A stretch of 55,625 bases of DNA, taken from positions 79,064 through 134,688 of the forward strand of contig SVOT01000005.1 in the NCBI GenBank assembly GCA_015066225.1, read 5' to 3'. Source of the DNA: Oscillospiraceae bacterium (GTDB lineage Bacteria; Bacillota; Clostridia; Oscillospirales; Acutalibacteraceae). The notes below the pieces were generated by a model. It did no database searches and had not been told where the DNA came from. It saw only the letters and a list, made by a program, of their open reading frames with translations. The translations under genes were made by a program, and so were the position numbers. Positions 10,234 through 44,062 of this stretch are shown piece after piece. The first letter of the stretch is position 1. The number at the start of each line of letters is the position of its first letter.

Positions 10234-10261
10234 TTGCGAAGTCACAAAATAGTGATATAAT
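10234..10261 (+). promoter_or_regulatory. Promoter of nadABC
   Basis: TTGCGA (10234-10239), 16-base spacer, TATAAT (10256-10261), about 33 bases before the nadA ATG. Confidence 0.6.
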
Positions 10262-10293
10262 AAATACAGTTATGATTATGATTGGGTGATATT

Positions 10294-24303: not shown

Positions 24304-25809
<1,506 letters not shown>

Positions 25810-25823
25810 TCTGCCGACGGACA

Positions 25824-25910
25824 ATACCGCTCTGCCGCAAGGCAGAATATCACTGTGCGTAGCACAATATCACTGCGCAGCAATATCACTCGCCAACAGG
25901 CGAATATCAC
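25824..25910. repeat. ATATCAC hairpin array, left side
   Basis: Four exact ATATCAC heptamers (25847, 25867, 25883, 25904) and one degenerate (ATACCGC, 25824) separate palindromic words: TCTGCCGCAAGGCAGA, TGTGCGTAGCACA, TGCGCAGCA and TCGCCAACAGGCGA. Every word starts with T, ends with A and folds into a small hairpin. The words differ while the heptamer is constant. An inverted array lies at 26377-26468. Confidence 0.9.
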
Positions 25911-25929
25911 TAAAAAATAAATACATAAA

Positions 25930-25973
25930 AAAGAGAGAAACTTCACAGTAAACGAAGCTTCTCTCTTTTTTGT
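25930..25973. terminator. Bidirectional terminator beside the left array
   Basis: AAGAGAGAA and CTTC pair with GAAG and TTCTCTCTT around ACAGTAAAC, with an A tract on the left and T tract on the right. It can end the GH51 transcript (after the array) and the four-helix-bundle transcript (before the array). Confidence 0.75.
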
Positions 25974-25989
25974 TATTGGTAAATTTCAA

Positions 25990-26352
25990 TTATATTTCAT
26001 CTTGTTTGTGTTTTACTGTATTAAGCGAAGCTATCAACATTCGCCTAATTGCACCGCAATCATTATGCATCTTGTTATATTTTTCTTGGCTCATACAACC
26101 AGTTTCAAAAAGAATATCTAACCAAAACTCTGTTTCATAGCATTCTTTTTGTGCTATTTCAAGTTTTGATATAAAATCCTTCGTACTTTGTGCATAATGT
26201 GCCTCGTATATATTTGCCCCTATAGATGTGCCGGAACGAAGCATTTGATTTATTATCGGTGCTTCTTTGATCTCGGCTTTCATTTCTCGGCAAAGAAAAA
26301 TAATGTTTTTCGCAAACTCTTTTGATTTGTCTCTTAAAACACTGTCTGCCAA
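25990..26352 (-). CDS. Four-helix-bundle protein (S23/IVP, Avd-like)
   Basis: 120 aa. The N-terminus MADSVLRDKSKEFAKNII and the core RSGTSIGANIYEAHYAQSTKDF followed by KECYETEFWLDIL are diagnostic of the family first seen as ORFs inside 23S rRNA intervening sequences and related to Avd of diversity-generating retroelements. The fold is four amphipathic helices that assemble into oligomers and may bind nucleic acid. The start is a TTG (26352) behind AGGAG at long spacing. The gene sits alone between two inverted ATATCAC/GTGATAT hairpin arrays. No reverse transcriptase or rRNA sequence is adjacent, so it is neither a complete retroelement nor an rRNA insert here. Confidence 0.88.
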   Translation of the reverse strand: MADSVLRDKSKEFAKNIIFLCREMKAEIKEAPIINQMLRSGTSIGANIYEAHYAQSTKDFISKLEIAQKECYETEFWLDILFETGCMSQEKYNKMHNDCGAIRRMLIASLNTVKHKQDEI

Positions 26353-26376
26353 GAATATCCACTCTCCTCTTTATAA

Positions 26377-26468
26377 GTGATATTCTGCCTTACGGCAGAG
26401 TGATATTGCTGCGCAGTGATATTCGCCTTGCGGCGAGTGATATTGAAACTTGCAGTTTCAGTTGTATT
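26377..26468. repeat. GTGATAT hairpin array, right side
   Basis: Inverse orientation of the left array. GTGATAT occurs at 26377, 26400, 26416 and 26437, with a degenerate copy (GTTGTAT) at 26462. Words between: TCTGCCTTACGGCAGA, TGCTGCGCA, TCGCCTTGCGGCGA and TGAAACTTGCAGTTTCA. Three of the four have close counterparts on the left. It lies just upstream of the four-helix-bundle start, between it and the MFS gene. Confidence 0.9.
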
Positions 26469-26500: not shown

Positions 26501-27928
26501 TTATTTCTTCAACTCTTCTCTTTGCTGAAGAACACGTTGGTGAACAGCGTCCTTTGTTTCACCTGTGAGGTGATAGAACAAGAACGGGATACCCGCAAGA
26601 AGCATCATAATGCCGTGGAAAACAGTGTAGAAGAAAAGCATTGTGATTTTTGTGTATTCGCTTTGAACAGGGTCGGGATTTTCGTCGGTTGGCTGAATGT
26701 AGTGGATAATTGAATCGTCGCCATAGAGAATCTTTGGTGAAAGGCTTGAAGCAACAGTTCCGCTTATCATTGTGCCTACACCAATAACGAAGGGTAACGC
26801 CGCATCAAGACGCTTGCCCTTTGTCTGAACCTCGAGAGCTTCAAGCACGTCTGCCTGGAACATTGAGGGCAACAGGTTGGATGCACCAAACTGAAGACCG
26901 ATAAGGAAAAGGCAGGCAATAAACAAAATCTGCATAGCAGAGCTACCTGTTTTAAAATATGAATAACCGACAGTAAAGGCAATTACGTTTGCGGTTATTG
27001 AATAAATACCTGACGCAATATAGAGCACCTTTGCATTGAATTTTTTGAGAAGCATATTGATAACGAGCATACCAACCGCTGTACCTATGCCTGTGGGAAG
27101 ACCGAATAAAATAAATTTATCTGAGCCGCCGAGAAGCGCCGCCGCAAGGAAAACGCCCATATAGTTTGCAATCTGGCGGAAGTTTTTGAGAGTTTCGCTG
27201 ACGATGATTATCCAGGCATACTTGTTCTTGATAACATCAACAAAGCCCTCAAGGGGATTTTTCTTTTCCTGTGTGTATTCAATTCGCTCTTTTACAAAGC
27301 GCATACCCATAAGGGTGATAAATGTGCCGACAACGCTGATAAGAGCGGCAGAAATGATGTAAAGAATCTGCTTATCTTTAACAAAAAGACCGATTACGAG
27401 AGTAACAACAAGGGGAGCTGAGTTACCAACAGCACTTGAAATACTCTTGAATGATATAACCTTGTCACGCTCACGGTTGTCAGGCGACATAACAAAAGAA
27501 ACAAGGTTTATTGCGTTACCAAAGCTACAGCAAGCACCGTGAAGAAGACCGATTGTTATGAGGTAAATCAGAAGAAGTGTGCCTGTGAGACCCTTGGGTG
27601 TTATAAACATCAGAAGCGTTACAATACCCATAGGGATAGCAACCGCATTTATAATCGGCACAAATTTGCCCTTTTTCGTGATTTTATGGTTGTCGATAAC
27701 CATCGCATAGAAAAAGCTGAGCACGAAGCCCGCAACGCTGAGGAAGCCGTTCATAAATGAAAGGCTGTCATCGCTGAGACGAATGATGTTGACAAGGTAT
27801 TCCTGCCTGTAGGAGCCGACGATACCTGTCATCATTGTGTAGAAGAAAATAGCGGCAAGATAAAAGATAAATTCTTTATTTTGCACGTATTTCTGCTGAT
27901 TGGGGAGTTTTGATTGAGCTTGTTTCAT
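26501..27928 (-). CDS. MFS/GPH-type sugar transporter
   Basis: 475 aa. The ATG at 27928 follows GGAGAG; a GTG two codons earlier is less likely. About 12 hydrophobic segments are visible, with paired blocks such as FLSVAGFVLSFFYAMVIDN and VPIINAVAIPMGIVTLLMF. The loop after TM2 (DNHKITKKGKFVP) and the organisation suggest the glycoside-pentoside-hexuronide cation symporter group or a related MFS sugar carrier. The C-terminal cytoplasmic tail is basic and ends QQREELKK. Neighbouring glycosidases favour an oligosaccharide or sugar substrate; that is inference. Its 3' side faces the right hairpin array. Confidence 0.8.
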   Translation of the reverse strand: MKQAQSKLPNQQKYVQNKEFIFYLAAIFFYTMMTGIVGSYRQEYLVNIIRLSDDSLSFMNGFLSVAGFVLSFFYAMVIDNHKITKKGKFVPIINAVAIPMGIVTLLMFITPKGLTGTLLLIYLITIGLLHGACCSFGNAINLVSFVMSPDNRERDKVISFKSISSAVGNSAPLVVTLVIGLFVKDKQILYIISAALISVVGTFITLMGMRFVKERIEYTQEKKNPLEGFVDVIKNKYAWIIIVSETLKNFRQIANYMGVFLAAALLGGSDKFILFGLPTGIGTAVGMLVINMLLKKFNAKVLYIASGIYSITANVIAFTVGYSYFKTGSSAMQILFIACLFLIGLQFGASNLLPSMFQADVLEALEVQTKGKRLDAALPFVIGVGTMISGTVASSLSPKILYGDDSIIHYIQPTDENPDPVQSEYTKITMLFFYTVFHGIMMLLAGIPFLFYHLTGETKDAVHQRVLQQREELKK

Positions 27929-42820: not shown

Positions 42821-44062
42821 ATGAAAAAATATAAAATTGGTATCTTCGGCGCAGGCAGAGGCATTGACCTTGCCGAAAATTTTATGCATCTCGGCTGTGA
42901 AATTTCGGCTGTTTGCGATTTTAACGAAAAAAGAAGACGTGAGGGCATTGAACGCCTTGGTGCAGAGGTTTCTGAATTCGCTGATTTCGATGAGTTTATC
43001 AAATGCGATATGGATGCTGTAGTTATTGCGAACTATTTTCACGAGCACACGCCATATATTATCAAATGCTTTGAAAAAGGGATTCACGTTTTGTGCGAGT
43101 GCATAACAAATGCCACCATGGCAGAGGGTGTTGAACTGACCCGCGCCTTTGAAAAAACGAGCTCAGTTTTTATGCTTGCTGAAAATTACCCTCAGATGAT
43201 TTTTAACCGTGAAATGAAAAAGGTGTACGACGGCGGAACCTTGGGCAAAATTATTTATGCCGAGGGCGAATACAATCACCCATACAAGCCCGACGACCCC
43301 GAATTCAACAAATCCGCCGTGTATTTCACCGATCATTGGCGCAACTTTTTACCCCGCTCATATTACATAACCCACTCCCTTGCTCCCCTTATGTGGGCAA
43401 CCGGCGCAACGCCGAAAAAAGTTGTTGCAATGCCTGTTTTTTCACCCATTAAAGAAGAAGTAACCGCCCGCCGCGTGGGTGACAGGGCGGCTATTATCAC
43501 AACCCTTAATGACGACGACTCTGTTTTCAGGGTTACGGGCTGTGCCGCTTTCGGTGCACACCACAACTCCTACCGCATTTGCGGTGAAAACGGTCAGATT
43601 GAAAATCCCCGCGGTATGGGCGAAAAGGTGATGCTTCGCTACAGCGACTGGGCTATCCCCGAGGGTAAGCAGGAGGTTAACCTCTATGAACCCACGTGGG
43701 ATGACAGCGACGAGGATCTCATCAGGGGTGCCGGTCACGGCGGCGGTGACTACATCGTTTCAAGGATGTTCATCGAATGTCTTGAAAAAGGCGAGCAACC
43801 CCCGCACCCTTACGACCTTCACTCGGCAATTGCCATGTCAAGCGTGGCGATTCTTTCCCACCGTTCAATTCTCAATGGTGGTGTTACATACGACATACCC
43901 GATTTCACAAAAGAGGAGTGTCGCAAGCAATATGAAGCCGACAGGCTTTCGCCTTTCGTTTACACTGATGGGACTAAGCCTGATATCCCCTGTTGCTCAC
44001 ACCCCGACTATTCCCCCACAGAGGAACAGATTGAAAAAATGCGTGAGCTTCTCAAGGATTAA
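42821..44062 (+). CDS. Gfo/Idh/MocA-like oxidoreductase with altered lysine motif
   Basis: 413 aa; the ATG at 42821 follows GAGGG. The N-terminal Rossmann motif GIFGAGRGIDLAENF is intact, but where relatives have EKP this protein reads HVLCECITNATMAEG, so the usual catalytic Lys is missing. The rest, including LGKIIYAEGEYNHPY and SLAPLMWATGA, is well preserved. It is longer than the other two paralogues in the window. It may bind NAD(H) and a sugar without ordinary hydride chemistry, or use a different residue. A separate transcription unit from its minus-strand neighbours. Confidence 0.8.
   Translation: MKKYKIGIFGAGRGIDLAENFMHLGCEISAVCDFNEKRRREGIERLGAEVSEFADFDEFIKCDMDAVVIANYFHEHTPYIIKCFEKGIHVLCECITNATMAEGVELTRAFEKTSSVFMLAENYPQMIFNREMKKVYDGGTLGKIIYAEGEYNHPYKPDDPEFNKSAVYFTDHWRNFLPRSYYITHSLAPLMWATGATPKKVVAMPVFSPIKEEVTARRVGDRAAIITTLNDDDSVFRVTGCAAFGAHHNSYRICGENGQIENPRGMGEKVMLRYSDWAIPEGKQEVNLYEPTWDDSDEDLIRGAGHGGGDYIVSRMFIECLEKGEQPPHPYDLHSAIAMSSVAILSHRSILNGGVTYDIPDFTKEECRKQYEADRLSPFVYTDGTKPDIPCCSHPDYSPTEEQIEKMRELLKD

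Follow-up and report, generated by a model that had tools for sequence, protein, structure and literature searches.

Between the end of a GH51 open reading frame and that of an MFS gene, an Oscillospiraceae genome carries what is probably a gene-bearing copy of a class of mobile elements in which an S23 gene is the only gene and inverted arrays of short words form the ends. This copy lies in a 55,625-nt stretch of contig SVOT01000005.1 (hereafter "the window"), and its features are collected in Table 1. Across the class, S23 genes are associated with such arrays, and elements are present in some genomes and absent from others.

Table 1 Features of the element, in positions of the window
Feature	Position	Strand	Remark
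Whole element as folded	25826..26468	-	Both arrays paired in a long stem (RNA fold)
Left array: 4 palindromic words and 4 ATATCAC heptamers	25831..25910	-	
Gut-1 RNA match in left array	25842-25912	-	Rfam RF01706
Intrinsic-terminator-like hairpin 3' of the S23 gene	25927..25971	-	GAGAGAAGCTTC..GAAGTTTCTCTC, then a T run; in the predicted fold
S23/23S-IVP four-helix-bundle gene, 120 aa, TTG start	25990..26352	-	Clade with hairpin arrays
Likely ribosome-binding region before the start codon	26353..26370	-	GAGGAGAGTGGATATTC, from reading of the sequence
Gut-1 RNA match in right array	26375-26448	+	Rfam RF01706
Right array: 4 GTGATAT heptamers, 4 palindromic words, 1 degenerate heptamer	26377..26467	+	
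Degenerate heptamer GTTGTAT	26461-26467		Right array end

The initial annotation had described four exact copies of ATATCAC to the left of a lone gene and four of the inverse heptamer to its right, with small palindromes in between. Both arrays were recovered: ATATCAC is found at 25847, 25867, 25883 and 25904 on the plus strand and at 26377, 26400, 26416 and 26437 on the minus strand, and palindromic words of 9–17 nt alternate with the heptamers, of which each array has four. By reading of the sequence, these words occupy 25831–25846, 25854–25866, 25874–25882 and 25890–25903 on the left and 26384–26399, 26407–26415, 26423–26436 and 26444–26460 on the right, and the three word types said to be common to both sides are indeed shared. 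The location between the GH51 stop codon and the MFS gene end was likewise correct (GH51 ORF end at 25809; end of the minus-strand MFS ORF at 26501). Along the minus strand, the order is right array, ribosome-binding region, S23 gene, terminator-like hairpin and left array. The whole window contains 14 ATATCAC heptamers, eight of them in the element, compared with a mean of 4.42 and a maximum of 10 in 100 shuffles, and the pattern ATATCAC N9-20 ATATCAC occurs 23 times in the host genome, including six times in the element; the reversed pattern was found 0 times. Elsewhere in the window, two GTGATAT copies lie 27 nt apart (10252–10292) with no hairpin word visible between them, probably by chance.

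Aligned to the inverse of the right flank, the left flank of the window's gene reached a match score of 42.5. Folding of the minus-strand transcript, proposed as a check in the initial annotation, gave −224 kcal/mol for the element compared with a mean of −141.9 in 20 shuffles (z = −14.58; 0 of 20 as low). By flank match and fold, the element thus has terminal inverted repeats that form a stem around the S23 ORF. The earlier suggestion of a free-standing element whose arrays fold back is supported by this fold and by the empty-site alleles of sister elements described below. The element is located outside any 23S rRNA gene, and the rRNA matches of the window are confined to its far end.

The product of the single gene between the arrays, which had been read as an S23-like protein of 120 aa, scored 95 bits against PF05635 (23S_rRNA_IVP; cut-off 33.8) and 104.7 bits against TIGR02436 (cut-off 24), and its structure model (pLDDT 93.8) matched the S23 structures 2rld (TM 0.90) and 2gsc (TM 0.79) in Foldseek. 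In a 22-member alignment over S23 types A, B and C, the residues Q36, R39, S43, I44, N47, E50, I66 and E73 (window numbering) were invariant. Five of these, namely Q36, R39, S43, N47 and E50, all fall in helix 2 of the model (residues 32–52) with helix-like spacing, and might possibly have a role in binding or catalysis. With a pI of 6.3, compared with a clade median of 8.4, the window protein lacks a basic character, and its binding to nucleic acids is not self-evident. The host genome encodes five S23 genes, each of which has, by eye, short-repeat arrays beside or around it, with five different word types.

We compared the flanks of S23 genes in two sets of loci. The first set comprised the first 80 PF05635 matches from outside the host genome listed for 60 related genomes, plus the five host genes (85 loci). 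At each locus, the left flank was aligned locally to the reverse complement of the right flank, and a score of at least 20 was taken as a match. In this set, drawn from the order of the host, 45 of 84 loci matched (one locus with a 14-nt flank was dropped). Control positions 2.2 kb away within these loci yielded 4 matches out of 137; the top shifted control, at 62.5, scored above every S23 locus of this set. For loci with at least 300 nt of flank on both sides, matches were obtained for 44 of 82 within-locus pairs compared with 342 of 6642 between-locus pairs, the within-locus score sum of the first set was reached by 0 of 10,000 random pairings, and the sole top-scoring partner of a left flank was its own right flank in 18 of 82 loci, where chance predicts about 1. 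The second set, which spans at least seven phyla by record titles (Bacillota, Bacteroidota, Cyanobacteriota, Campylobacterota, Verrucomicrobiota, Pseudomonadota and Fusobacteriota), consisted of the best 80 of 584 relatives of a B-type alignment among one genome for each of 84,980 species, and is hence biased. After eight loci with short flanks were dropped, matches numbered 57 of 72 within loci, 2 of 134 at shifted positions and 530 of 5112 between loci, and 25 of 72 left flanks had their own right flank as sole top-scoring partner (again about 1 by chance). An automatic test, which called an array when at least one flank contained a tandem array or hairpin words in a chain, was positive for 68 of the 85 first-set loci and 72 of the 80 second-set loci. 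Of 143 single control flanks from the first set, 2 had tandem arrays and 0 had hairpin chains; since a locus has two flanks, these rates should be roughly doubled to give the chance level per locus. Overall, inverted arrays bracket S23 genes across many phyla; the words are specific to each locus, yet those on the left pair with those on the right.

The words at some individual loci are of types known from elsewhere. TAACTGA-type words flank an S23 gene at L204, and GGGAACA and CCCCAAT, which we take to be words of cyanobacterial repeats, flank S23 genes on Nostoc and Planktothrix plasmids (L303 and L304). At L304 (2980–3339; Planktothrix agardhii plasmid NZ_LR882951.1), the S23 gene and its heptamer arrays are found between annotated drmD (DISARM) and pglX (BREX) genes. 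The S23 genes of L083, L090 and L134 contain internal stop codons and represent decayed copies, next to which arrays are still detected.

Array periodicity was evaluated for 90 loci with a flank score of at least 22. Self-matches of the arrays peaked at lags of 7, 14 and 21 (0.66, 0.62 and 0.58) compared with 0.24–0.31 at the other lags from 3 to 24, and the best lag was 7, 14 or 21 in 158 of the 176 array sides of at least 28 nt. For the 67 of 90 loci with a clear period of 7, a common heptamer profile, A-R-T-K-N-A-N, reached a log-likelihood of 818 compared with 109 for shuffled segments; A-type S23 loci displayed other words, e.g., AGTCGCC or GTCAGTG. On the first-set S23 tree, which has few columns for its number of rows, array class required 12 label changes compared with 37.3 when shuffled (0 of 200 as low). 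All 24 hairpin-only loci were found in one 37-row clade (support 100/99), which includes the window's gene, nearest to L151; the other 13 rows of this clade were scored as having no array, none was scored as tandem, and the two loci scored as both array types fell outside the clade. Eleven of these 13 rows were inspected by eye and all 11 show hairpin words, with different spacers, which indicates that the hairpin detector is too strict.

The words themselves were compared with the proteins across the 116 tandem-array loci of both sets (6650 pairs, with 20 same-site pairs left out). Word similarity tracked protein similarity (Spearman 0.23; Mantel 0 of 500): words were common to 89.5% of the 19 pairs with a protein similarity of at least 0.8, and to <1% of those below 0.5. 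The words are inherited with the S23 protein lineage. An origin of the words from the target site was also considered and is weakened, because the words follow the S23 lineage at different sites. Among the pairs listed, no clear left–right homogenisation was seen in orthologous same-type pairs (own and cross scores were alike for L021/L119, L105/L106, L115/L136 and L118/L133, and mixed with L141), which suggests that rapid, continuing exchange is not what keeps the arrays paired. Taken together, these patterns make it scarcely credible that the heptamer arrays are passive simple repeats that grow by slippage and in which S23 genes merely survive. Tandem repeats do expand easily, but the inverted match between the two arrays of a locus far exceeds that seen at shifted controls or between loci, same-orientation flank matches with a score of at least 20 are rarer than inverted ones (11 of 82 in the first set and 13 of 72 in the second), and both array type and word follow the protein tree.

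Orthologous sites were compared between genomes of the genus. At the site between glyS and an ABC gene, both anchors were found in 12 of the 21 genus loci examined, of which three carry an S23 gene (G000, G003 and G007), one carries arrays with a remnant (G014) and eight are empty, the anchors being 36–90 nt apart when empty compared with 570 nt in G000. At the site between xpt and a BMP-type gene, S23 is present in 3 of 16 genomes, arrays without the gene in one (G002), and 12 are empty. The S23 genes at this second site are B-type in G001 and G011 and A-type in G018, and the insertion begins at the xpt end, where in G001 it seems, by eye, to provide the stop codon. No target-site duplication was evident by eye at either the glyS or the xpt site, at which between-species divergence blurs short repeats. 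Unrelated S23 types with unrelated words were also detected at one site in sister species (L020/L090, L082 and L083/L130, and L092/L095). Overall, for sister elements of the window's copy, complete insertions occur at a site in some species and are missing from the orthologous site in others, and all the differences recorded are between species. As for the window's own site, no genome other than the host among the 22 of the genus had GH51 and MFS matches side by side, among the matches listed, and no empty allele was recovered for this copy.

Both arrays of the window belong to the Rfam family Gut-1 (RF01706), with 64.3 and 56.8 bits for a gathering threshold of 50. The initial annotation had missed this identity and the generality of the class, and its reading of the element is partly supported. 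In the host genome, 18 stronger Gut-1 matches were grouped into 13 sites, two of which are contig ends and perhaps one place, and two weak matches were left out. Only 2 of these 13 sites have a PF05635 gene within 1 kb, i.e., gene-less arrays outnumber gene-bearing ones, and the earlier expectation that arrays depend on the gene literally failed. Most of the remaining sites hold array pairs face to face without a gene, and some are near-copies of each other. Among the 60 genomes, which are related and not independent, 36 had both Gut-1 and S23, 3 had Gut-1 only, 6 had S23 only and 15 had neither, among the matches listed. Since 68 of the 85 S23 loci have arrays and 36 of the 39 Gut-1 genomes have S23, this pattern suggests autonomous and non-autonomous copies. 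Gene-less, MITE-like copies with the same ends as gene-bearing elements exist: L114-type ends without S23, roughly 200–230 nt long, were found in G011, G001 and G002, and glyS-type ends without S23 in G014 and G003. Some of these copies are truncated by a contig end, and for some only one end was visible.

One further pair of Gut-1 copies was considered as proof of movement and set aside. These copies, at L046 (contig C6, about 43700–44050) and L051 (contig C17, about 73030–73380), are near-identical, ~340 nt long and in opposite orientation, contain a Gut-1 pair and have the ends AGCTGTAA..TTACAGC. Because their likeness extends beyond the arrays, they were possibly carried by another repeat.

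Insertion sites were evaluated against neighbouring genes. For 75 of 98 loci, compared with 39 of 374 control positions, the outer edge of the upstream tandem array was located at most 30 nt from the stop codon of a same-strand ORF with 60 or more codons, and convergent ORFs end at the downstream array edge in 43 of 96 loci compared with 61 of 367 controls. In the window's clade, 20 of the 36 other loci have a tRNA gene upstream on the same strand within about 450 nt, compared with 1 of the 48 remaining loci (distances by eye; tmRNA genes not counted). Comparisons from the tRNA side (9 and 14 loci) yielded a mixed picture. Among the 14 loci for the tRNA next to the gene-less site C3:12.2k, the same array end as in the host genome was found in G007:C38, several others have different arrays or tandem heptamers, and the rest have none visible. 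At the tRNA 3' end by C3:12.45k (L044; counterparts L350–L364), species differ in array elements and terminator stems, and this may be a hotspot. S23 elements with AATTCGG/AATGCGT words are also found just before the tmRNA gene in L099, L105 and L106 (G001:C13, G006:C8 and G017:C34), where the gene upstream looks, by eye, like smpB.

Arrays located at gene 3' ends and beside tRNA genes could also be expected of a regulatory or RNA-processing module, in which S23 would be an RNA-binding regulator, the arrays its sites in its own mRNA and in the 3' ends of others, and the gene-less arrays a regulon spread by ordinary recombination. Gut-1 is indeed catalogued as a structured RNA, and TAACTGA heptamers have been put forward as sites of a post-transcriptional regulator (PMC4679880). 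However, insertions are missing at orthologous sites of sister species, a given site can be occupied, depending on the species, by S23 families that are unrelated and have unrelated words, loci within a genome differ in their words, as would not be expected of a single regulon, and the neighbours differ among the sites read (glyS, xpt, tmRNA and tRNA genes), all of which makes such a module rather unlikely.

We next considered partner enzymes, by searching the 60 genomes for RVT_1 (PF00078) and Y1_Tnp at E up to 1e-6. Of the 42 genomes with S23 among the matches listed, 10 had RVT_1 and 12 had Y1_Tnp; of the other 18, RVT_1 was detected in 3 and Y1_Tnp in 4, which gives totals of 13 and 16 genomes, respectively. 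At this threshold, the host genome (95.45% complete) had 0 matches to RVT_1, the reverse transcriptase expected of diversity-generating retroelements (DGRs), and 0 matches to Y1_Tnp, the transposase expected of REPIN/RAYT systems; none to RVT_1 was found in G020 either (98% complete, 11 S23 matches). A resident reverse transcriptase or Y1 transposase was considered as a partner and rejected, as these searches found it neither in the host genome nor in many S23-rich genomes. Neither therefore seems to be needed as a resident partner, although a past or missed partner is possible.

These distributions bear on two alternatives. The first is a retro-element that moves via RNA, with S23 acting in an Avd-like manner for a reverse transcriptase that is provided in trans. 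The RNA of the element is strongly folded by prediction, and the four-helix-bundle fold of the S23 model is similar to that of Avd in DGRs, at a TM of about 0.75 (4dwl, TM 0.76, Foldseek E only 0.066; DGR ribonucleoprotein 8ub7, TM 0.75, E only 0.15), the four Avd/DGR matches listed having 12–16% identity and E-values of 0.066–0.29. Unlike in DGR Avd systems, however, no reverse transcriptase was found in the host genome by PF00078, and the presence of RVT_1 in a minority of the genomes and the lack of a match in G020 make this alternative very unlikely, even if a partner may have been lost or missed. The second stems from REPINs, with their RAYT transposases, and MITEs, which consist of dispersed gene-less copies that have the ends of a gene-bearing copy, a feature shared by the elements described here. 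Hairpin arrays and dispersed gene-less copies would thus be consistent with REPIN-like elements moved by a Y1 (HUH) transposase, with S23 as a passenger. This is highly improbable given the 16 of 60 genomes with Y1_Tnp, the host not being among them, and given words that are matched to the S23 lineage; unlike in REPIN/RAYT systems, the ends are word arrays that vary by lineage.

For a mobile element with S23 as its sole gene, the co-inheritance of words and protein suggests that the S23 protein may recognise the array words. In the mechanism that we propose, an S23 oligomer would bind the array words of its own element where one DNA strand, or the transcript, has folded back into a hairpin, and bound S23 would protect or present the element ends. 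S23 would also direct insertion just past stop codons and, in the window's clade, beside tRNA genes and terminators, and gene-less copies, including Gut-1 elements, would be mobilised in trans. Because the host genome yielded neither a reverse transcriptase nor a Y1 transposase, we suggest, as a guess, that the folded ends may undergo strand transfer by host replication and repair enzymes, for which S23 would serve as specificity and annealing factor. A broader reading, which is plausible but which we hold only tentatively, is that S23/IVP proteins are the machinery of a phylum-crossing mobile class without a recognisable nuclease, recombinase, transposase or reverse transcriptase of its own, whose oligomeric four-helix bundle would read lineage-specific heptamer or hairpin words at folded-back ends and bring about insertion at stop codons and tRNA genes via host enzymes. 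Gut-1, 23S rRNA intervening sequences (IVSs) and many heptamer arrays (cyanobacterial STRRs, TAACTGA) would then be ends, relics or non-autonomous copies of this class. Cyanobacterial STRRs are themselves heptamer arrays.

Some of these features have been described separately. In the passages of PMC4990558 on the 23S rRNA IVS of Coxiella burnetii, this IVS has an S23p ORF, a terminal inverted-repeat stem of 28 bp and two to three GACAGAT heptamers beside the ORF; it is called selfish and of unclear origin, and an older hypothesis is cited in which the ORF product served mobility. The elements described here are similar in having an S23-family ORF as sole gene, terminal inverted repeats and tandem heptamers. 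In contrast, IVSs are, according to the same passages, located inside 23S rRNA genes and cut from the rRNA by RNase III, while the present elements are found between genes or at tRNA genes, with longer arrays and gene-less copies. The Coxiella IVS looks like a member of the class that landed in rRNA, and if IVSs are counted as the same kind, the class would represent a large extension of IVSs and not a new category. Gut-1 was described in 2010 as a non-coding RNA from human gut samples only, in passages that name neither a protein partner nor mobility (PMC2864571); here, with both window arrays above the gathering score of the family, it appears as the end or gene-less form of an S23 element.

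For heptamer arrays, the TAACTGA paper favours translational regulation, with transposon excision mentioned as conceivable in the same passages (PMC4679880). The GGGAATC arrays of Xanthomonas and GGGGA(C/T)T arrays of Nostoc are also heptamer arrays (PMC4692102), and the passages of Rehm et al. on Xanthomonas report convergent GGGAATC array pairs, 90% position-conserved between two species, and no tie to known mobile elements (PMC4692102). If these arrays are of the same kind, this conservation argues against recent mobility there and points to old or immobile copies. As described in these passages, TAACTGA, GGGAATC and GGGGA(C/T)T arrays are tandem, mostly intergenic and in some cases convergent pairs, as here, and the terms "S23" and "23S" are absent from the main text of both papers. 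In the FLSHclust paper, a figure legend on association scores and CRISPR links names 23S rRNA IVP (PMC10910872), which could be explained by heptamer arrays being miscounted as CRISPR arrays. Our search, which covered few subscription papers and no bioRxiv preprints, found no literature linking S23 with such arrays as an element. The element class is widespread and, judged against the literature searched, apparently unrecognised.

If the broader reading is true, it would provide a function for the S23/IVP family, whose structures have been solved (2gsc in 2006 and 2rld in 2007) and whose role is so far not known. It would also explain the origin of heptamer repeat arrays and Gut-1 RNAs, and 23S rRNA intervening sequences would represent one special landing site of a common element. 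Finally, a mobile element whose sole protein is a small helical bundle without a recognisable catalytic domain would be mechanistically new.
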